DNA of 64,000 nt, taken from positions 248,001-312,000 of the forward strand of contig NZ_CP025257.1 in assembly GCF_002843565.1 (NCBI RefSeq), given 5' to 3'. Shown piece after piece: positions 9,805 to 63,384 of this stretch (position 1 is the stretch's first letter; every line of letters begins with the position of its first letter). The notes below the pieces were generated by a model that did not search any database, was not told where the DNA came from, and saw only the letters and a list, made by a program, of their open reading frames with translations. This stretch comes from Mesoplasma syrphidae (GTDB lineage Bacteria > Bacillota_I > Bacilli_A > Mycoplasmatales > Mycoplasmataceae). Made by a program: the position numbers and the translations under genes.

Positions 9805-10005
9805 TTAACCTACAACTTTATCTTGCTTTTTAAGAGTTCTTAAAGTTCTAGCTGAAACTTTAATTGTGAAAACTCTACCATCTTCATCCATTACTTTAAT
9901 TTTTTGTAAATTTAAATTTCATTTTCTTCTGGTAGCGTTTAAAGCGTGTGATCTAGAATTCCCTGAAAGAGCACCTTTACCAGTTAATGTATCTTTTCTT
10001 GCCAT
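9805..10005 (-). CDS. rpmB: 50S ribosomal protein L28
   Basis: 66 residues, normal for bacterial L28. Large-subunit protein. Recognisable segments are [21 protein letters not shown] (about 10-29), [28 protein letters not shown] (33-60) and the C-terminal VVG. No zinc-binding Cys pair is present (C-minus form). The ATG at 10005 is preceded by an AGGTGA ribosome site. It is divergent from asp23-fakA, the same neighbourhood as rpmB-yloU-yloV in Bacillus. The 193 bp between the two start codons must hold both promoters. Confidence 0.95.
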
Positions 10006-10167
10006 GTTGTTTCACCTACACTTTTTCTTTTTATATACTTGTAGATATTACTAAATATATTTAATAAATACAATACCAAAACTGCTGTTTACAAAATATT
10101 TTTTAAAAAAAATAAAAACAACATTATTTTAAAACTATTTCGTATTATTTAATATATATAAATATGC

Positions 10168-10173
10168 TAAAAT
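10168..10173 (+). promoter_or_regulatory. Probable -10 of the asp23-fakA operon
   Basis: TAAAAT with an upstream TG (TGCTAAAAT) resembles an extended -10. It is 25 nt before the GTG start codon. No good -35 is seen. Confidence 0.4.
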
Positions 10174-10198
10174 AAATAAATGAAAGTCAGGTGATTTT

Positions 10199-10510
10199 GT
10201 GAATAATATTGATAAATCAGTTATAAAGGTTATCAAGGACGCTGTAGTTACAGTTCCTGGAGTCGCATCTTTTGCAAACTACAATGCAGAGAACACTTCA
10301 GAGCTTGCTTCTCGTGAAATTGATAATGCCATTGAATTCACAAACACAGACAACGTAACACGTTTTAGAATCCATGTGGTTTTAATTCAAGGAGTTAACA
10401 TTAGAGATGTAATGAACGAAATTCAAATTCGTGTAAAGTATGAGTTAGAAAAAATTTCAAAATTTACTGTTAAGTATATGGTCGATGTTGCCATAGATGA
10501 TTTAATGTAA
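10199..10510 (+). CDS. Asp23/Gls24 family protein (YloU-like)
   Basis: 103 residues, a full-length single Asp23/Gls24 domain: a helix ending VPGVASF, the strand region VTRFRIHVVLIQGVNIRDVMNEIQIRVKYELEK, and VKYMVDVAIDDLM. The family is linked to cell-envelope stress in Firmicutes; the YloU branch sits before fakA and its molecular role is not established. The start codon is GTG with AGGTGA upstream. It is followed by fakA after about 46 nt on the same strand, probably in one transcript. Confidence 0.88.
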   Translation: MNNIDKSVIKVIKDAVVTVPGVASFANYNAENTSELASREIDNAIEFTNTDNVTRFRIHVVLIQGVNIRDVMNEIQIRVKYELEKISKFTVKYMVDVAIDDLM

Positions 10511-10556
10511 TTTTAGTTTGTAAAAAAATAAAATAAAATATTTAGGTGAAGAAAAA

Positions 10557-12212
10557 ATGGAAAAAATAAATTTATTGATGAATATGATTGTAAGCGGTGT
10601 CAACAACTTGTATAACAATTATCCTCATATTGACAAGTTAAATGTTTTCCCAGTACCAGATGGAGATACAGGGACTAACATGAATTTGACAGCCAATAAT
10701 GGATATGATGATGTTAAAGATAATCACTATGAAACTATCGGGTCTTATTTATCGGCTTTTTCAAGAGGACTTATTATGGGAGCAAGAGGTAACTCAGGGG
10801 TTATCTTTTCACAAATTATTAAGGGACTATCAAGAGGAATGCAAGATTCAACTGAACTAAATGTTGAAGAATGACAGAATGGTTTTAGAGAAGCCAAAGA
10901 AATTGCTTACAAGGCAGTTATGAAGCCTGTTGAGGGAACAATTTTAACAGTGATTCGTGAAATTAGTGAGGCAGCTGATCAAATTGATCCAGCAATCGAT
11001 TTAAAGGATTTTTGAAATCAAATTATTGAGGCTGGTAACGTTTCACTTGAAAATACTCCCAATCTTTTGCAAGCTTTAAAAGATGTAGGAGTTGTTGACT
11101 CAGGAGCTTATGGATTAGTTAAATTTTTAGAAGGAATGAACAGCGTAGTTCAAACTGGTGAAATTGTTGAGCGTCTTTCAAAATTGGAGACAAATGAAGG
11201 TGGAAATATCGAAATGGATATTGAAGGCGAATTTGGATATTGTACTGAAGGAGTAATTATTTTAAATCCGGAGTGGATTGATAAATTGCAAATTAATACT
11301 ATTCGTGATCAACTACAAGTTTATGGAAATACATCTATGGTTGTTGTTATTGATGAAGAAATTTTAAAAGTGCATACTCATGCATTATCTCCGGGACAAG
11401 TTTTGATGTTTTTACAACAGTATGGAGATTTTAAAACTGTTAAAGTTGAAAATATGAATTTACAGGCTGACAAGCAGGTGCAAGGTGGAAATCCAAACGT
11501 TAATAAGTCATGAAAAGAAACAACAAGTATTAAAATTGAGCGTAATCTTAAAAATGCGGTTGCAACTATTGCAGTTGTTTCATCTGAAGAAATGAAGCGT
11601 TATTTTGAAAATGAACTAGGAGTTGATTTGGCAATTAATGGAGGATCAAAAATGAATCCTTCAACAAATGATTTCATTAAAGCAATTGAAGAAGTTGATG
11701 CTAAAACTGTGTTTATTATGCCAAATAATAGCAACGTTCTATTAACTGCTAAACAAGCAGAAAAAGAAGAAACTAAATCTAAAATTTATGTTATTCCAAC
11801 TAAAACAATTCAACAGGGAATGGCATCGGCTTTAAGTTTTGATCCAAGTGCTTCATCAATTAGAAATAGTACAGCACTATCAAAAGCAATTAAAAATGTA
11901 ACTTCATTTAGTGTTTCAAGAGCTGCTAAAGATTCTGTAGTTGACGGAATAAAAGTTAAAAAAAGCTCTCAAATGGCAATTGTTGATGGAAAAATTGTTG
12001 GAACTGCTTTAACTCTTAAAGCTTTATTTGAAAAAGAACTTGGTAAATGTATTACATCAAAAACCGAAATTTTGACAATTTTTATTGGTCAAGATGCTGA
12101 TGCAAAGAGCGTAAGTGAACTTAGAAAATATCTTGATGAAAACTTTGATGTTGAGTATGAAATTGTTGAAGGTGGTCAAAAAATTTATAGCTTCATTATT
12201 GGAATTGAATAA
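10557..12212 (+). CDS. fakA: Fatty acid kinase, catalytic subunit FakA (YloV)
   Basis: 551 residues. FakA phosphorylates fatty acids carried by a FakB binding protein to acyl-phosphate, the entry to phospholipid synthesis from host lipids. The N-terminal DhaL-type nucleotide domain shows FPVPDGDTGTNM at 31-42, with the metal-binding Asp residues, and MGARGNSGVIFSQI near 74-87. The second half is the YloV/FakA C-terminal domain (EGEFGYCTEGVIIL, KVHTHALSPGQVL, and the IVEGGQKIYSFIIGIE end). No fakB gene is visible in the window. plsX follows, which makes a functional pair. Confidence 0.93.
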
Positions 12213-12216
12213 TATT

Positions 12217-12242
12217 AAAACCCCTAATTTTTTAGGGGTTTT
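12217..12242 (+). terminator. Hairpin between fakA and plsX
   Basis: AAAACCCCTAA and TTAGGGGTTTT form an 11-bp stem with a 4-nt loop. The T-tail is short (the TTTT is inside the stem), so termination may be partial. TATAAT at 12247-12252 could start a plsX transcript. Confidence 0.6.
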
Positions 12243-12278
12243 AATATATAATTAAATAAAAAGAAAGAAGGTCTTTGT

Positions 12279-13280
12279 ATGTACAAAATTGCATTTGACG
12301 TAATGGGTTCAGATAAGGGAGCAACTGTTGCTATTCAAGCAGCTGTTGAGTTCTTAAAGACTAAAACTAACTTAAAATTAATTTTTATTGGAAATGAGCA
12401 AGAAATTAAGCAAGCTCTTGTAAATAATGGTGGATTAGATGATTCACAATACGAAATTTTAGCAACAACAGAAATAATTGATATGGATGGATCGATTATG
12501 GATGTTCGTCGTAAAAAAGATGCTTCACTTGTTAGAGCATTGGAACTCGTTAAAGAGCAAAAAGTAGACGCAATGTTAACTGGAGGAAATTCAGCAGCAT
12601 TTATTGCTGGAGCACATTTTATTTTAGGAGAATTTGAAGGTGTTACTCGACCTGGGTTCATGCCAACAATGCCAACCTTGACTCCAGGAGTAACAACATT
12701 AATGTTAGATGTTGGAGCAAATGTTGAAAATACGGCCGAGGATTTATTAGGTTACGCAAAAATGGCCTCAATATATTCTCGTGAAGTTCAAGGAGTTAAA
12801 AGTCCCCGAATTGGTTTAATGAATATTGGAGAAGAAGCATCAAAAGGACGGGACTTGCAAAAAGAAGCTTATCAGTTATTAAAAGCTGATAAAAGTTTAA
12901 ACTTTGTCGGAAATATTGAGTCAAGAGAAATGACAACAGGAGTTGTTGAGGTTTTAGTAGCAGACGGATATTCAGGAAACATTGCATTGAAAGCAATGGA
13001 AGGAATGGGTAAAAATATTTTAAGGGGAATTAAAGAATCTTTAACAAAAAATTTGTATCGCAAATTGCATGCTTTGGCTTTAAAAAAGGCTTTTAAAGAG
13101 TTTGGAAATCGTTTTGATTATAAAAATTACGCTGGAGCAATTTTAATTGGAGTCAACGGAATTATTTTTAAATCTCATGGTTCAAGTGATGTCCAATCTT
13201 TTAAGGCAACTTTAAGAATGACTTTGGAAGCCGTAGAAAATGATGTTTTAACAAAAATGAAAAAGGGTATGGCTGAGTAA
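12279..13280 (+). CDS. plsX: Phosphate acyltransferase PlsX
   Basis: 333 residues, normal length. PlsX interconverts acyl-ACP and acyl-phosphate at the membrane; PlsY then uses acyl-phosphate to acylate glycerol-3-phosphate. Family segments: [19 protein letters not shown] (4-22, usually DAMGGD), [37 protein letters not shown] and [16 protein letters not shown]. With FakA just upstream it fits a lipid route fed by scavenged fatty acids; no FASII gene (fabD, fabG, acpP) lies between plsX and rnc, unlike Bacillus. The start has AGAAGG upstream. Confidence 0.95.
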
Positions 13281-55736: not shown

Positions 55737-56945
55737 TTATCTAACAAGCATTTTTATTGTGGCATTAATTAACTTATCTAATTCATTATCAATTTTTGAG
55801 GAAATTGATAATGTCTCAAATAGCTTTTCTAATAATGTCTCGCTTTCAAGGTCATGAATTATTTCGACTTCACTTATTATTTTTTTAAGTCCTTGATCAT
55901 TTAATCCAACCATTGTTGTTCCTGTTGAAAATAGCTTTTTTTTGTTATAAAAATAATCAGACATAAAAAATGACAAATTTGAAAACTTAAAGTCTGAGTC
56001 ACTTTTTATTCCTCACATTCCATTTGAAATTATTAAATTTTTATCTGAATTCGAAAATAAAAATTTTCTTTCTCCTAATAATTTGCAAATATATAACGTA
56101 TTTAATTGTACTTTTAATCTTGCTCTTGAAGGCAATTTGGAATAGTATTCTTGTTTCTTTATTTTGTTGCTGAAATTTCCAATGTCTGCTGTTTGAGAAT
56201 AAATTCCTTTTTCAATTTTTTCTTCTCTTTGTTGATATATGTTTAGCTTTTTCCCAATTGCTTTTTTTGTTATTAATTTTTGTCCAATTTGTGCAATTAA
56301 TTTTATTGATGAATTTAAAATTTCTTTATTCTTGGCAATTACAATTTCAATAGGTTCAATAATATCAATTATTTTCTTAACATCATCTTCACAATTTTTA
56401 AAAGTATCAATTCTTATACAATTACTGTATTTTAAAAATAAATTTTCAATAGGTTCAATAATATCAATTATTTTTTGCTGTTCTTCTAAGGATGGTAATG
56501 AAATGTCTATATGACTAAAATCTGCCCTTTTAAACCTATATACCTTTATACCTGTAGCAAATTTTGCAAAAATATTTTGATTCATTTTTAATCAATAAAA
56601 AAGTCATCTATTCAAAACTTTTGTGTTATCTGGAATAATTTTTATTTGCTCTCCGCCTAAGATGCCTTCTTTGTCAGCATTATAAAAAATTACTTTACCC
56701 AATTCCTTTACTGTTTCAGAAGTAGAAATTAAGAAAACATCATTTTTAGACATCAGGGAATTAGTTTTTAAAAAAGATTTATCTACAAAAAAAGAAAAAT
56801 CATTATCTATGATTTCAAGTTTGTATGTTTTTCCGTAATGAAGTGCTAAGTATTCCAAGTTTTTATCGTGAGATAAATCGTTCTTTTTAAAACTGCCGTT
56901 TCCACGTTCAGTTTTACAAATCTCATTAAGTTTATAAATAGCCAT
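55737..56945 (-). CDS. hsdS: Type I restriction-modification specificity subunit HsdS (expressed copy)
   Basis: 402 residues. First target-recognition domain about 1-145 (MAIYKLNEICKTERGNGS to HIDISLPSLEEQQ), first conserved helix region with QQKIIDIIEPIENLFLKYS, a repeat of that module (KKIIDIIEPIEIVIAKN), second recognition domain about 230-360 and a final conserved helix. HsdS directs HsdM and HsdR to a bipartite DNA site. GGAGG stands 7 nt before the ATG and an extended -10 (TGATAAAAT) lies about 31 nt upstream, so this copy can be expressed. Its start codon is inside a 25-bp repeat shared in inverted orientation with the second hsdS. Confidence 0.88.
56345..56375 (-). repeat. 31-bp copy of the internal hsdS repeat
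   Basis: Identical on the minus strand to 31 bases of the 35-bp repeat at 56443-56477 and 58181-58215; encodes KIIDIIEPIE. Confidence 0.85.
56443..56477 (-). repeat. 35-bp internal hsdS repeat, left copy
   Basis: Encodes QKIIDIIEPIEN. Perfect inverted copy at 58181-58215 in the second hsdS. Confidence 0.88.
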
Positions 56946-56953
56946 TAAAAAAC
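56929..56953 (-). repeat. 25-bp inverted repeat over the hsdS start codon, left copy
   Basis: Reads GTTTTTTAATGGC followed by TATTTATAAACT on the minus strand, spanning the start codon and first residues MAIYKL. Perfect inverted partner at 57756-57780. Likely recombination site of the adjacent tyrosine recombinase. Confidence 0.88.
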
Positions 56954-56975
56954 CTCCATTTTTTTATTTATAGTA

Positions 56976-56984
56976 ATTTTATCA
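56976..56984 (-). promoter_or_regulatory. Extended -10 for hsdS (leftward)
   Basis: TGATAAAAT on the minus strand, within AAATGATAAAAT. The same 12 bases occur before hsdR (63425-63436), which supports a shared promoter type. Confidence 0.5.
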
Positions 56985-57025
56985 TTTTATTAAAAAGAAA
57001 AGATAATAAATTTTGGAGGTATATT

Positions 57026-57748
57026 ATGAAAAAAAATGAGTATTTAAAATTTTTAAAGAAAAATAACTATTCTGCAAACACAATATCTACTTATAAAAGT
57101 ATTTTAAGTATTTATCAAAACGATTTTGTGAATATAGCGAGAATTAAAAAACATATGTTAAAGTATTTTAGTTCGCCAAATACTGTATGAACACATTACA
57201 ATGTAATTTGTTCATACATGAAATGAAGCAAGGATAAAAGGTTGGGTAATTTTAAAGAAATGAAACTGCCCAAAATTCCAAAGACATATATGAAAGTTTT
57301 TAAAAAAGATTTCTTGATAAAAAAAACAAATATAAATGATGAAGATTCGGAATTGTTAAAACAAAAGAAAATTGTAATCAGATTTTTGTTTGAGACAGGA
57401 ATAAGAGCTGCAGAACTAAATTCTATATTAGAAATAAATTCTAAAACTATTAAAGTTGTTGGTAAGGGAAATAAAGTAAGAGAAATATTCCATAGAAATG
57501 ATACAACTAAGCAATTAAAAGAATTTATATATACAACAAAAACATTACGTTTTTGGGTAAAGGAAATATTAGGAGAGAATTTTACTCCACACTCAATTAG
57601 AAGATCATATGCTACTCATATGCTACTAGGTGGTGCAAATCCGAAGATGGTAATGATGCAATTAGGGCATGAAAAAATTGAAACAACTTTCAGATATTTA
57701 AATTTATCATTAGAAGAAAATTGAAAAATTTACAGTAAGTTTTTATAG
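57026..57748 (+). CDS. Tyrosine site-specific recombinase (XerC/D-HvsR type)
   Basis: 240 residues, shorter than XerC/D (about 300). N-terminal SAM-like core-binding part (FLKKNNYSANTISTYKSIL, about 9-27). Catalytic residues: Arg127 (ETGIRAAEL), Lys148 region (VVGKGNK), His189 and Arg192 (HSIRRSYATH), His215 (QLGHEKIETT) and nucleophile Tyr224 (FRYL). All are present. Position between two oppositely oriented hsdS genes with inverted repeats argues that it shuffles them, as recombinases do at hsd loci of M. pulmonis and streptococci. Divergent from the left hsdS; strong site TGGAGG before its ATG. Confidence 0.9.
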
Positions 57749-57762
57749 ACTTACTGTTTTTT
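57733..57762 (+). terminator. Terminator of the recombinase gene, abutting the silent hsdS
   Basis: CAGTAAGT (57733-57740) and ACTTACTG (57749-57756), 8-nt loop, then TTTTTT (57757-57762). The last stem base and the T-run belong to the 25-bp repeat; the ATG of the next hsdS comes 1 nt after the T-run. Confidence 0.78.
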
Positions 57763-57780
57763 AATGGCTATTTATAAACT
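57756..57780 (+). repeat. 25-bp inverted repeat over the hsdS start codon, right copy
   Basis: Identical to the minus-strand sequence at 56929-56953. Contains the ATG of the rightward hsdS. Confidence 0.88.
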
Positions 57781-58780
57781 AGGCGATATATCAATAATAC
57801 AAAACGGCAGTACACCAAGTACTAAAAATGAAAGTTTATGAAAAAAGGAAATACCCTTTTTAGGTCCTTCAGACATTGAAGCTAATCGCGCTTCACGATA
57901 TGTAACTAAAAATAAGGCAAAAAGGCCTGGAACCATTTTAATTTCAACAACAGCTACAATTGGGAATATAGGAATACTTGAAGTGGAGTCTTGATTTAAT
58001 CAACAAATTACATCGATTGAAGCCAACCCTAATTTTGTTAAAGATAAATTTTTATTTTACTATTTTTTAACTCAAAAAAATAAAATAAAAAAAATATCAG
58101 ATGGGGGATCAGTATTTAGCATAATACATGTAAATACTTTTAGAAATTGAATAATTGATTTATCTTCTTTAGAAGAGCAACAAAAAATAATTGATATTAT
58201 TGAACCTATTGAAAAAATGAAAAATAAATTTATGACTTTAAATAAAACAGTTTTGGAACTAATAAAAAAAATTGAGTTGTCTGATGAAAAAATAAGAATA
58301 ATTGATTTTTTTTATGAAGTAAGAGAGAAACCAAAAAATATAAAGCAAATTTCTGCAAAAGTGCTTTCTGAAAATAAAGGTTTAATTTTAAAAGCGGAAA
58401 GTCCAAATACATATAAAACAAATACTTTTTATTGCAATGAGGGAACTTTCATTTTTTGTTCAATAAGAACTTATTTACAAAAATGAGGAATTACTCCGTT
58501 TGATGCTGATGTTAATGGAACTCTTTTTCAGTTTGAAATCAAAAAAAATTTGACTCCTTTAATAAATTATTTGAAAAATGAAAGTTCATGATCAACATTT
58601 AATTTATTATCCAAAGGAACTAAAATGCCTGTTCTTTCCAAAAAAGATTTTTTAAACATTGAAATCAATAAAACTAAATTTGAAATTAAGAAAATTGACT
58701 TAATCTTAAAAAATATTAATAAAATAATTATTGATATGGAAAGTTTAATTGAGAAGAGCGTTAGTCTTTTGGTAAAATAA
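57764..58780 (+). CDS. hsdS: Type I specificity subunit HsdS, probably silent copy
   Basis: 338 residues. Recognition domain 1 (MAIYKLGDISIIQNGSTPSTKNESLW to FRNWIIDLSSLEEQQ), conserved helix QQKIIDIIEPIEKMKNKF, recognition domain 2 (about 190-310, ISAKVLSENKGLILKAESP to KMPVLSKKDFLNIEIN) and a final helix. Apart from the shared first six residues and the helical repeat, it differs from the other hsdS, so it would recognise another site. The ATG follows a transcription terminator directly and has no Shine-Dalgarno, so it should be off in this orientation. Convergent with hsdM. Confidence 0.85.
58181..58215 (+). repeat. 35-bp internal hsdS repeat, right copy
   Basis: Perfect inverted partner of 56443-56477; encodes QKIIDIIEPIEK at the first recognition-domain boundary. 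Confidence 0.88.
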
Positions 58781-58790
58781 AAAAATAAAA

Positions 58791-58828
58791 AACACTTAAA
58801 ATCTATTTAGATTCAAGTGTTTTTTTTA
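58791..58828 (+). terminator. Bidirectional terminator between silent hsdS and hsdM
   Basis: AACACTT and AAGTGTT enclose a second stem AATCTA/TAGATT; T-runs flank both sides. It overlaps the last codons of hsdM. Confidence 0.72.
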
Positions 58829-60320
58829 TTGCCTCATGAAGTTTTGGTTTTAATTCGTCAAATTCTTTAAGCAAGTCTGATAATTCTAATGATAATTGCA
58901 TAATATCTTTTTGAGTTTGCTCTTTATCAATCTTTTCCTCTTTAGATTCTACATATCTTCCCGGAACAAATGAAAAGTCATTTTCTACTAAATTTGTAAA
59001 TTTAATTGTTTTTGCTAATCCTTGTTCGTTAATTTCTTCACCAGCTAAATGTTTATCATACAGGGTTTGAATTATCGAAATATTTTCGTCAGTTAGTTCT
59101 CTTAGTTTTTTAGAAATCATATTACCTTCAATATTTGATCCTGAAACCATTAAAATATTTTTATTAACTTTTTTATTATTAAATACTCAAATACAAGCAG
59201 GAATTCCAGTCGTATAAAATAATTTATCTGGTAATTCAATAATAGCATCAACTTTGTTTTCTTTAACAAAGTTTTCTCTAATAGCTTTTTCTTCTTTTTG
59301 AGATGAAGATAATGAACCATTAGCTAAAACTATAGCCATTTTTCCTTGATTTGAAAGCTTTGAAAGCATATGAGATAACCAAGCATAGTTTGCATTTCCT
59401 GAAGGTGGTAAACCTCACTTAAATCTCATATCTTCTTCTAAAGCATCTCTGCCTCAGTTTTTCATATTAAATGGAGGATTTGCCATTACAAAGTCAAATT
59501 TTTTATTTTTATGTTGATCATTTGTAAAAGTATCAGCGTTTGTCTGTCCCAAAACACCGTTATCATCGGTATCAAAAAGTGAAAATCCATTTAAGACCAA
59601 ATTCAATTTTGCCAATTTTCAAGTCACATTATTATACTCTTGCCCATAAACTGTGATATCTTCAATTTTACCTTTATGTTCTTGAATATATCTCTTAGCT
59701 TGAACAAGAATCCCACCAGTTCCGCAAGCAGGATCATAAATTGTTCCTTTTAAAGGTTTAATTAAGTTAACCATAAGTTTAACTATTGATGTAGGAGTAT
59801 AAAATTCTCCTCCTTTTTGTCCTCGATCTTTAAAAAATTTGCCTAAGAAATATTCATAAACTCTTCCAATCATATCTTCATTATCTTCTTCAGATAAATC
59901 TTCATCAGAAAATATTTTAATAACATTACCAAGTTTAATTTGATCTAGTCCCTCTCTATTAAAGTTTTTGTTAAAAATTCCTCTTAAAATTTCATTTTGC
60001 AATTCTAATTTCATGAATGCTTCATCAAGCTTTTCGCCAATTTTCTCAGTATTTGAAAAGTTCATTAAGTACTCTCACTTAGACTCTTCATGAACAATAA
60101 AAGTTTTATAAGAATAATATAATTCATTGGGAGAAAACATCTCAATTTTCATACCCTCGTCTGATATTTTTTGTAATGCAACTTTGTTTCTATCTGATAT
60201 ATATTTAAGTGTTAAAATTCCTAGAATTGTATGCATATATTCTTCTGCTGAAGTATTACCACGTAAAACGTTTGATGCTTCTCATAGTTTACTTTCAATA
60301 TCTTTAATTTTTTTTGCCAT
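58803..60320 (-). CDS. hsdM: Type I restriction-modification methyltransferase subunit HsdM
   Basis: 505 residues. N-terminal HsdM_N helices (IESKLWEASNVLRGNTSAEEYMHTILGILTLKYIS), then the N6-adenine methylase fold: GGEFYTPTSIVKLMV, SAM-binding YDPACGTGGIL near 195, catalytic NPPF near 281, and C-terminal VLANGSLSSSQKEEKAIRE and AIIELPDKLFYTTGIPACIWV. Start ATG 60320 chosen because AAAGG lies 9 nt upstream; ATG 60329 is an in-frame alternative inside that site. 1 nt separates it from hsdR, so the two are coupled. No hsdS in this transcript. Confidence 0.95.
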
Positions 60321-60321
60321 T

Positions 60322-63300
60322 TTAGTCATCCTTTCTGAATGCGTTTTTGTTCGTTTTTATTGTATTTGTTATTTCTTTTATCAAATTTTCAGATAATGTA
60401 TATAAACCTTCTGGTGGATATTGATATTTAGTAGTTAGTAGTTTTTTTAATGTTGTTGTTATGTTAGATTGAACCATTGGATTAAACAAGAATTGATCAG
60501 TATTATTTTCGCGAATAGCTTCTCAAAGGTCTTGAGCTATAGCTCTCAGTGTTTCAGAGCTTTTGTTATATTGTAAAAACTTGTCATTAGATAGGATATC
60601 AAAGAAAACTTGCAATTCAATATTATCAAATTCTAAAGGTTTATCTTTTTCTTCTTTCATTTCTTTTGACAACTTAATCAAAAATTCAATAAATTCTTCA
60701 ATATCTCTAGAATTTTCCAATTCTAAGATTAGTTCTTTTAATTTTTCAGAAGCCAATTTTGCAAAATATGGCTTAATTTTGGCAATTTCATCAATCTGCA
60801 TTTGAATGGAATTTGCATATAATTGGGCAGCCACTCTTGGTCTAGACTTAACTAATTTTTCAGCTTCTGATTCTAAAATGTTTGCAACTTTATTAATATC
60901 TTTTGTCATAGTTGATTCATCAATTTTGATGCTTGTATCTGCAGTCATAACAGCTTTTCGAATTGCTTCTTTAACGCTCTCAATAGTTCATGTTAATTTT
61001 GAATCATTTCCAATTGTAGAACTGGTAATTAATGAATTTATTGTTTCTATGCATTTTGCAATTAATGTTTCTCTTTCAGAAATGTTTGTGTAAGATATTT
61101 TGTAAAATCTTTTTGCCTTTCTTGCTAATTTGATAAATTTATTTTTTTCATCAGTATTGAATTTATTAACGTCTAGTAATTTGTCATATGCACCCATAAC
61201 AAATTGATATTGCTCTTTTAAGTTAAGGTTTGGAAATTTTAAGATATTCTCAATATAATTATTATCAATTATTTCAAAAAGCTCGTTTAACTTTTCTTTT
61301 GCTTTCTCTATATCTTCAATTTCAATATCAAGTTTTGTATCAGAACCATTTGCATACTGAATTAAAGCATCAGAAATATATTTTCAAATTCCTATATAAT
61401 CAACAATTAATCCAGATTCTTTCGTCTTGTTTGTTTTTTTATCTTCAAAAGTTCGGTTAACTCTGGCAATTGCTTGCATTAGATTATGTCACTTAACAAT
61501 TTTATCCATATACATAACATCAAGATCAGGTACATCAAATCCAGTTAGTCACATGTCTACTACAATTGCTATTTTATATTTTGAGTCAGATTTTCTAAAT
61601 TCACTTGCAACTTTATTCATGTCACTTTTTGGAACTATTGCGTTTGCCATTTCTTTTGAATCTTTATTAGAATCTGTTGTCATCACTAAAATTGTTTTAT
61701 CCTTATATTCAGGATATTTTGTAGTTATATTTAAGTAATATTCATATGCAGAGTTTCTACTATTTGCTACAATCATTGCTTTACCATTTAGTATTCTTTT
61801 TCTTTTATTTAAATGTTCAATCATTTTGTCCGCTTTAGCTGCAATAATTTTTTTATCCTCAAAAATTATTGACTTATTGACTGCTTTTAATAATGCTTCC
61901 ATTTTTTGCTCTGATGCTATGTCGTTTGGATCTAAAGTATTTTTATATTCACTTTGAATTTTATCCATTTCTTCTAAATATTTTTTGTCAAGTGTGATAT
62001 TTGGTTTTCACATTTCATAATAAATTGGAACAGTTGCACCATCTTCAACTGCTTGATTCATAGGATATGTATCAATATAATCTCCGAAAATATTTCTCGT
62101 ATCTTTTTCGTTACCCATTAAAGGAGTACCGGTAAAACCTGTTATTTTTGCATTTGGGAATGCTTCTCTCATATATCTTGCATAACCAAATTTAATAATA
62201 AATTCTTCTTGCTCTCTTGAAAGCTTTCTTTCTCCGTTAATATTATTTTGAGTTCTATGTGCTTCATCAACAAGAATAAAAATATCAGAACGATTAGTCA
62301 AAATACCGGTCTGCTCAGCAAATTTCTGAACAGTTGAAAAATAAATACCAAAATGCTTTTTGTCATTTAATTCTTGAATTAAATCATTTCTTGAAGAAAT
62401 ATTTTTAGATTTGTTTCGCAAAAATGTTTCAGCATTTAAAAATCTTTTATATAATTGTTGGTCCAAATCTCTTCTATCAGTAACAAGTAAAATAGTAGAA
62501 GTTCCGAATTGCTTTATAATTGCTTTTGTTAAAAATACCATAGTCACAGATTTTCCTGATCCTTGAGTATGCCAAATTATTCCGCCACGATTATCTTTAA
62601 TATTTTTTAAATGTTCAATAGTTTTATTAACTGCTCTTATTTGATGAGGAGCTGCCAAATATTTAATAGGACTTTGATCATCAGAATAAAATGAGAAATT
62701 AAATATTATGTCTATTATATTTTTTTGTGAGAATAACATTTTGATTGGGTTCATTTTATTGCTTATTTCTCATTTGTTTCATCCATAAAAATGTCGAAAA
62801 CCGGCTGTAGTAGAACCGTACTTGGTTGAAATTCTATTTGATACAAAATTTATTATATTAAAATATCAAAGTTCAGGTTTAAAAAATTTTAATGATTCAT
62901 TCTGCAAAAATGCCTCATTTAATCCTTCGCTTCCTAATGGTTGTTTTAATTCCAATACAGCTATTGGTAACCCATTTATGAAAAGAACTATATCTGGTAT
63001 TCTTTTTTTATCGACGCCGTTTGTTATTTCAAATTGTCTAAAATAGCCAAACTTATTTAGATTTGAATCTTCAGAAATTAATTTAATTGTCAAGTTTCTT
63101 TCTTCATTTTCATCATATATTTTTATTCCGTCAAATAAAAATTGCATTCCTTTAAAATTCAGTTTTTCAAAAGAGTCAACATTTTTGATAATTTCATAAA
63201 TGACTTTATCTGCTTTTTGTTCATCTATATTATTTATTCTTTGAATAGAATTTTTTAAAATATCAAAATTAATAACTTCAGAGTAATCTTTTCTTTTAAA

Positions 63301-63384
63301 ATTTTTATATGTAAGTTTTTCTCATCCCAAATTTTGCAATTCTTCTTCTACATTGTCTTCAAAAAGTTTTTCATTAATAATCAT
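60322..63384 (-). CDS. hsdR: Type I restriction enzyme subunit HsdR
   Basis: 1020 residues. N-terminal nuclease domain with RIPDIVLFINGLPIAVLELKQP (the D...ExK endonuclease pattern), then the SF2 motor: HTQGSGKSVTM (Walker A, near 270), LVTDRRDLDQQL, DEAH box VDEAHRTQ near 371, TGFTGTPLMG, and IVVDMWLTGFDVPDLDVMYMDK with QAIARVNR (motifs V and VI). A helical C-terminal part (about 760-1020) contacts the methylase. Complete, with no disruption. It cleaves unmodified DNA after translocation; together with two alternative HsdS proteins the system could change its target sequence. Confidence 0.95.

Follow-up and report, generated by a model that had tools for sequence, protein, structure and literature searches.

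The 64,000-nucleotide stretch analysed here (positions 248,001 to 312,000 of contig NZ_CP025257.1, hereafter the window) comes from Mesoplasma syrphidae, a mollicute with a 908,214-bp single-contig genome in which TGA encodes tryptophan. At 55.7–63.4 kb it carries a Type I restriction-modification (R-M) locus in the order hsdS-L (−), recombinase (+), hsdS-R (+), hsdM (−), hsdR (−), whose hsdS and recombinase genes open correctly only under genetic code 4 (TGA = Trp). The element at issue is the 802-bp cassette between the two hsdS genes. It encodes a tyrosine recombinase, is bounded by perfect inverted repeats that cover both hsdS start codons and, we propose, would invert to decide which hsdS is expressed.

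As a Type I R-M locus it comprises hsdR and hsdM, two hsdS genes in opposite orientation, and inverted repeats common to both hsdS. In profile searches of the whole genome (E ≤ 0.001), hsdS-L and hsdS-R are the sole PF01420 matches, and the recombinase sited between them is the sole PF00589 match. Both hsdS genes are full length, each with its own start codon, and they point outward from the cassette. Because the pair is divergent, and hsdM and hsdR lie on the strand opposite to hsdS-R, a promoter for hsdS would most naturally sit in the 802 bp that separate the two genes. The features are as follows.

56929..56953, no strand: left start-site arm, a 25-bp perfect inverted repeat over the hsdS-L start codon
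57756..57780, no strand: right start-site arm, a 25-bp perfect inverted repeat over the hsdS-R start codon
56954..57755, no strand: predicted invertible segment, 802 bp between the start-site arms
57026..57748, plus strand: tyrosine recombinase, 240 amino acids (aa); PF00589 (Phage_integrase) at E 6e-16; residues R127, K147, H189, R192, H215, Y224
56953..56957, minus strand: Shine-Dalgarno GGAGG of hsdS-L, inside the invertible segment with its last G in the arm; seen in the sequence
56976..56984, minus strand: predicted extended -10, TGATAAAAT, facing hsdS-L; seen in the sequence
57015..57019, plus strand: Shine-Dalgarno GGAGG of the recombinase; seen in the sequence
57732..57757, plus strand: intrinsic terminator of the recombinase, directly before hsdS-R, with its T-run in the right arm
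55737..56945, minus strand: hsdS-L, 402 aa; PF01420 at E 1.2e-11; code 4 open reading frame; the side that now has the predicted promoter and the ribosome site
57764..58780, plus strand: hsdS-R, 338 aa; PF01420 at E 2e-24; the side now without promoter or ribosome site
58803..60329, minus strand: hsdM, 508 aa; MTase_I at E 3e-115; convergent with hsdS-R
60322..63384, minus strand: hsdR, 1020 aa; REase_I at E 2e-160

The start-site arms are identical at 25 of 25 bp. Each takes in the start codon with the preceding 8 bases, and most of the MAIYKL codons. Across the whole 908,214-bp genome, the 25-mer is found at only two places within 3 mismatches. In 500 dinucleotide shuffles of 55737–58780 with repeat arms at least 300 bp apart, the longest inverted repeat was 18 bp (mean 13.4), compared with 25 bp for the real start-site pair and 35 bp for a central pair described below. 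On these shuffles, a chance origin of the start-site repeats was rejected. A looser version that also allowed palindromes and any spacing gave a repeat of at least 25 bp in 2 of 1000 shuffles.

The two ends of the cassette differ. On the 5' side of the recombinase, the DNA runs TGATAAAAT ... GGAGGTTTTTTA ATG into hsdS-L; the 3' side runs ACAGTAAGT...ACTTACTGTTTTTTA ATG into hsdS-R. The hsdS-R leader is CTTACTG TTTTTT A ATG, in which the terminator T-run doubles as leader. The stretch 57712–57768 that contains the terminator hairpin folds at -15.3 kcal/mol (z -5.2), and a terminator scan returned only this hairpin, on both strands, against 0.1 expected. The arm GTTTTTTA thus has a double role: at one end it spaces the ribosome site from the start codon, and at the other it is the tail of the terminator. 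A first-pass annotation made from the letters alone had described the 25-bp perfect repeats over both start codons with the recombinase inside, a GGAGG before the left hsdS and none before the right, and a right start 1 nt past the terminator T-run; coordinates, PF00589 match, sequence and hairpin fold bear all of this out.

The recombinase has the R-K-H-R-H-Y catalytic residues of the tyrosine recombinase family. The K, H, R, H and Y are invariant in 25 of 25 aligned recombinases, as is R127. Assignment as a Xer equivalog was rejected, its NCBIfam scores being 92 bits against a cut-off of 220 for XerA and 81 against 335 for XerC.

The cassette in thirteen loci

Searching with the recombinase gave matches at E ≤ 1e-15 in 43 of 320 genomes of the order; among 395 genomes sampled from the class, 5 matched at E ≤ 1e-25, all five within the order. 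Wide neighbourhoods were taken for 20 of the 48 match places listed in the order (8 of the 20 at ≤48% identity), and 25 loci were annotated, including the window and L004–L007. Thirteen have hsdS on both sides of the recombinase together with a start-site pair. In a quick tree, the recombinase of the window and those 55–73% identical to it group, 17 in all, on one side of a branch (SH-aLRT 99). Four members of this clade were left out of the arm counts: L043, near which no hsdS was found; L047 and L048, where contig ends are near; and L045, whose recombinase lies outside 34-bp repeats that frame two convergent hsdS. The L043 recombinase is the second of this group in its genome (G199), which also has a full cassette.

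The layout hsdR-hsdM-hsdS-rec-hsdS is shared by the window and 12 relatives: Spiroplasma platyhelix (L005), two other spiroplasmas (L006, L007), L004, L038–L042, L044, L046 and L049. From start codon to start codon, the span is 780–818 bp. Both orientations occur across species. The recombinase points toward hsdM in 10 of the 13 loci and away from it in three (L006, L007, L042), and within the three-spiroplasma group L005 is oriented opposite to its nearest kin, L006 and L007. The contig of L004 is titled Elusimicrobiota, but with 26.6% GC and TGA read as Trp it is probably a misbinned mollicute.

The asymmetry of the cassette is conserved with its layout. Twelve of the 13 loci carry a ribosome site of at least 5 bases on the promoter side, and none carries one on the terminator side; a hairpin followed by a T-run shows the reverse (terminator side 12/13, promoter side 0/13). 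TAAAAT lies 29–49 nt before the promoter-side hsdS start in 11 of 13 loci, a kind of motif that is common in AT-rich DNA. In L004, a TAG 10 nt before the core interrupts the reading frame of the silent hsdS, which has no ATG, GTG or TTG until 47 nt past the core; on the expressed side, the gene begins 19 nt ahead of the core, at an ATG within the cassette. There, the cassette itself provides the start codon.

Within each locus, arm identity centres on the start codon. Counted from the start codon, the two arms match throughout -2 to +9 in 13 of 13 loci, including at +5 and +6, which vary between species (ATGGCT, ATGGCA, ATGGGT, ATGGGA). The start 6-mers are equal within the locus 13 times out of 13; partner shuffles gave a mean of 5.8 and reached 13 once in 20,000. 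At -5 to -3, the arms agree in 8–11 of 13 loci against 4.5–7 expected from other loci, and from +10 on agreement is near the level seen between different loci. Six of the 13 loci show identity for 8 nt or more upstream of the ATG, and in five (L005, L006, L007, L038, L039) the identical run round the start codon is only 11–17 bp. Tyrosine recombinases need a narrow identical core between half-sites, and a core as narrow as this is short for homologous recombination. Since the arms agree from -2 to +9 in every locus, species-variable positions included, the crossover would be placed on the start codon, and the 11-bp zone amounts to a precise prediction of the crossover site.

We propose that the cassette-encoded recombinase would cross over between two sites of the form half-site/ATGGCT/half-site, whose core is the hsdS start codon. 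The crossover would invert 802 bp that hold a predicted divergent promoter pair (for hsdS and recombinase), together with the ribosome site of hsdS and the terminator of the recombinase. Whichever way the segment lies, one hsdS would receive promoter and ribosome site and the other the terminator; with one hsdS driven per orientation, HsdM and HsdR would work with one specificity subunit at a time. We put the probability of this either/or switch at about 85%. The first-pass annotation had proposed the same switch, and its proposal gains from the recurrence in 13 loci, the two orientations, the arm identity within loci, the opposite placement of ribosome site and terminator, and the silent copy of L004. 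From these observations, we infer that the segment inverts, that this recombinase is the agent and that methylation changes as a result.

A second pair of repeats inside the hsdS genes

The two hsdS genes of the window also share repeats in their central regions.

56443..56477, no strand: first central repeat in hsdS-L, matching hsdS-R over 35 identical bp; predicted as a second site of recombination
56345..56375, no strand: second central repeat in hsdS-L, at a distance of 99 bp (33 codons) from the first
58181..58215, no strand: central-region repeat of hsdS-R, inverted relative to the hsdS-L central repeats

The central repeat encodes IIDIIEP in both genes, mutually inverted, and its core in the window is ATATCA. 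Comparing the first central site of each hsdS, we found the core equal within the locus in 13 of 13 loci, against a shuffled mean of 3.3; none of 20,000 shuffles was as high. The longest run shared by the two hsdS genes averages 36.5 bp within loci against 16.4 between loci. It measures 29–60 bp in 12 of 13 loci, the exception being L007 with 15, and in L006 it lies beside the central site. Once start and central sites are masked, the longest runs are 11.3 within and 12.4 between loci, so the excess identity is confined to the sites and their edges.

Start and central sites form two site classes of similar form with differing cores. The antisense consensus of the central site, GGTTCAATAATGTCAATTATTTTTT, is similar to the start site of L004 and L042, GTTCAATAATGGCTATT; in L049 the start site is GATTATGG, and the central site likewise reads GATTATG. 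In five loci (the window, L038, L041, L044, L049) the central site is doubled in one hsdS at a distance of 99 bp. The doubled repeat of hsdS-L (56345–56477) is in frame, and a 33-codon change in domain spacing is a possible outcome on this reading of the sequence.

When inversions at the start sites, the central sites or both were made in silico, four arrangements resulted, with both hsdS frames open in each. GGAGG faces one hsdS in every state, and the driven proteins measure 402, 338, 355 and 385 aa. We lean slightly towards a second layer of switching, in which the same recombinase or homologous recombination would invert at the central sites, swap the first recognition domains and yield four HsdS. 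Homologous recombination could serve here because the central identity is longer than that of the start sites. The first-pass annotation had set the locus apart from shufflons that mainly exchange recognition domains; the start-site expression cassette upholds this contrast, but the central pair, which it overlooked, would add domain exchange.

Further observations concern how such sites are arranged elsewhere. L006 has a second divergent hsdS pair (9871–12300), whose 22-bp repeats (core ATGATT) enclose 126 bp that encode no recombinase. GAGAGG was seen by eye on one side only, and both proteins match PF01420. In L045 (8022–11254), the 34-bp repeats are start-site repeats that frame two hsdS bodies, so that after an inversion the other gene would stand behind an unmoved promoter. 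The second L006 cassette may be served in trans, and it and L045 appear to put the same pair of recombinase and site to other uses. A wider reading combines these elements: one recombinase would act on two classes of site that resemble each other in their half-sites but differ deliberately in the core, the start sites (ATGGCT) picking the expressed hsdS and the central sites (ATATCA) the first recognition domain, with the 33-codon repeat able to alter domain spacing. This would make a four-state methylation switch across mollicute families, with a second, promoter-only cassette served in trans in one species. We hold this combination tentatively, at somewhat short of an even chance.

Alternative explanations

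Several findings weigh against the either/or switch. The prediction of its promoter relies on a short motif amid AT-rich DNA, and a scan with a sigma-70 pattern did not list this promoter, returning 7 promoter-like sites against 6.8 expected. With no excess in that scan, the hsdS promoter stays a prediction, based on the extended -10, the ribosome site and conservation. The first-pass claim of a promoter facing the left hsdS thus keeps its motif, TGATAAAAT, without gaining the support of the scan. One genome per species was compared, so orientation differences are known between species only; as the three flipped loci belong to other species, flips may be old and rare. L004 fails the ribosome-site and terminator tests on both sides, and the silent side of L042 has a 4-base AGGT. 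The promoter-side hsdS of L040 is broken after 56 codons and the silent copy of L049 after 115. Over the last 8 arm positions (+10 to +17), within-locus identity is no higher than in shuffles (0.68 against 0.62; 1089 of 5000), and the permutations ignore the relatedness of the loci. Finally, L043 is a member of the recombinase clade with no hsdS found nearby.

An unlikely reading is that the switch was once active and is now locked, the genome being fixed in one state with a recombinase that no longer acts. It shares the design proposed above, so its share overlaps the figure given there. The broken hsdS genes of some relatives and a TAA stop in a related recombinase fragment in G162 fit such decay, but in M. 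syrphidae all five genes of the locus (recombinase, both hsdS, hsdM and hsdR) read through without interruption under code 4, the catalytic residues are intact and the arms are perfect.

We consider it less likely still that the recombinase only shuffles recognition domains at the central repeats, in streptococcal style, and that the start repeats are a by-product of shared N-terminal coding. Against this, the start-site identity continues upstream of the ATG for 8 nt or more in six of the 13 loci, and it includes codon choices (GCT, GCA) and Ala/Gly changes matched within each locus. The opposite placement of ribosome site and terminator in 12 of 13 loci and the L004 silent copy without a start codon also speak against it. 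In its favour, 12 of 13 loci have long shared hsdS runs located at the central site or next to it.

That the 802 bp are a small mobile element, a recombinase unit with terminal inverted repeats inserted between the hsdS genes, is highly improbable. A recombinase between inverted repeats would suit it, as would the patchy distribution and three other species of the genus, where neither PF01420 nor, at E ≤ 1e-15, the recombinase had a match. Yet the genome has a single arm pair, the cassette sits in the same place in 13 loci, and the repeats are part of the hsdS coding sequence. The 140 plasmid records matching the recombinase, all below 60% identity, also count against it. A scan of viral contigs, by a method that finds close relatives only, gave 32 short-peptide-pattern matches and no relative.

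A repeat left by chance or gene duplication, with no recombination, is barely credible: both HsdS begin MAIYKL, so some coding-derived identity is expected, but no shuffle gave a repeat above 18 bp, the cores of each locus vary together, and outside the sites hsdS runs are no longer than between loci (11.3 vs 12.4).

Known systems and consequences

The Salmonella Hin switch carries a promoter and the recombinase gene inside about 1 kb between short inverted sites; Hin is a serine recombinase with an enhancer, controls flagellin and has one target operon. Here, the predicted invertible segment contains the recombinase and a ribosome site, together with a predicted promoter. Unlike Hin, the recombinase is an unrelated tyrosine recombinase (PF00589), and the choice would be either/or between two genes at both ends. 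By analogy, the layout is the Hin principle with a tyrosine recombinase, applied to a putative phase-variable Type I system.

In Mycoplasma pulmonis, hsdS genes flank hsdR and hsdM, and Dybvig and Yu reportedly described in 1994 that hsd is regulated by DNA inversion. HvsR is reported to act on both vsa and hsd in that species (PMC2268961), and its gene lies away from hsd in the genome (PMC2824730). In M. syrphidae, by contrast, recombinase, predicted promoter and ribosome site share one 802-bp segment between divergent hsdS starts.

The Streptococcus pneumoniae cod/SpnIII locus includes the tyrosine recombinase gene PsrA and hsdS inverted repeats, and PsrA catalyses IR1 inversion (PMC4948785). 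Both loci thus pair a tyrosine recombinase with hsdS inverted repeats, and the central repeats described here resemble the cod type. In cod, inversion swaps coding regions of hsdS A with other hsdS, and the portion available describes no promoter or start-codon switch (PMC4948785). Here, unlike cod, both hsdS are full length with their own starts, and the promoter side would move.

G073 (L055) encodes a recombinase 38% identical to this one; it may be Xer1, the recombinase of the Mycoplasma agalactiae vpma locus. The vpma/Xer1 system resembles the cassette in having one promoter, sites just 5' of alternative genes and a tyrosine recombinase beside the locus, and differs in controlling surface lipoproteins, with many genes and with sites in the untranslated region (PMC2268961).

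Other hsd loci are built in other ways. L060 and L062 have a different recombinase between hsdS genes in other orientations. The mollicute genome G036, to which L063 and L064 belong, has 24 matches to Methylase_S, many of them in an hsdS array on one strand, and L063 has no inverted repeats of at least 18 bp. L059 and L061, which we take to be the hsd loci of M. agalactiae and M. bovis, encode int proteins of 307–310 aa that are very distant from this recombinase in the tree. The longest repeats there, of 373, 195 and 122 bp, are internal to hsdS genes, and int begins just past an hsdS 3' end. Among the repeats of at least 18 bp listed for them (at most 8 per locus), there is no start-codon pair round the recombinase. 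For these two species, an integrase-like gene and repeated hsdS are on record (PMC9465063, PMC2824730), and hsd rearrangement in M. agalactiae was sought and not shown (PMC2824730).

A genome-wide survey reports hsdS inversions to be frequent (PMC5903667), and a REBASE survey covers Type I loci with repeats and recombinases (PMC7394358). In the available portions of the papers listed by searches of the open-licence literature, we found no description of a promoter-plus-recombinase cassette between two hsdS genes. The layout called unusual in the first-pass annotation has no counterpart in those portions, but promoter-plus-recombinase inversion (Hin) and hsd inversion (M. pulmonis) were already known.

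The inverting Type I systems known from these sources swap recognition domains, whereas the cassette family described here appears to switch expression itself. Mycoplasmas are said to be without most known transcription factors (PMC9465063). The cassette packs a predicted promoter, a ribosome site, a recombinase and a terminator into 0.8 kb, and with expression switched at the start codon the cell would not run two specificity subunits together. This raises the question of how a cell that bears HsdR survives the moment at which its methylation target changes. If active, the cassette would be a self-contained epigenetic switch whose state could be read from one polymerase chain reaction (PCR).
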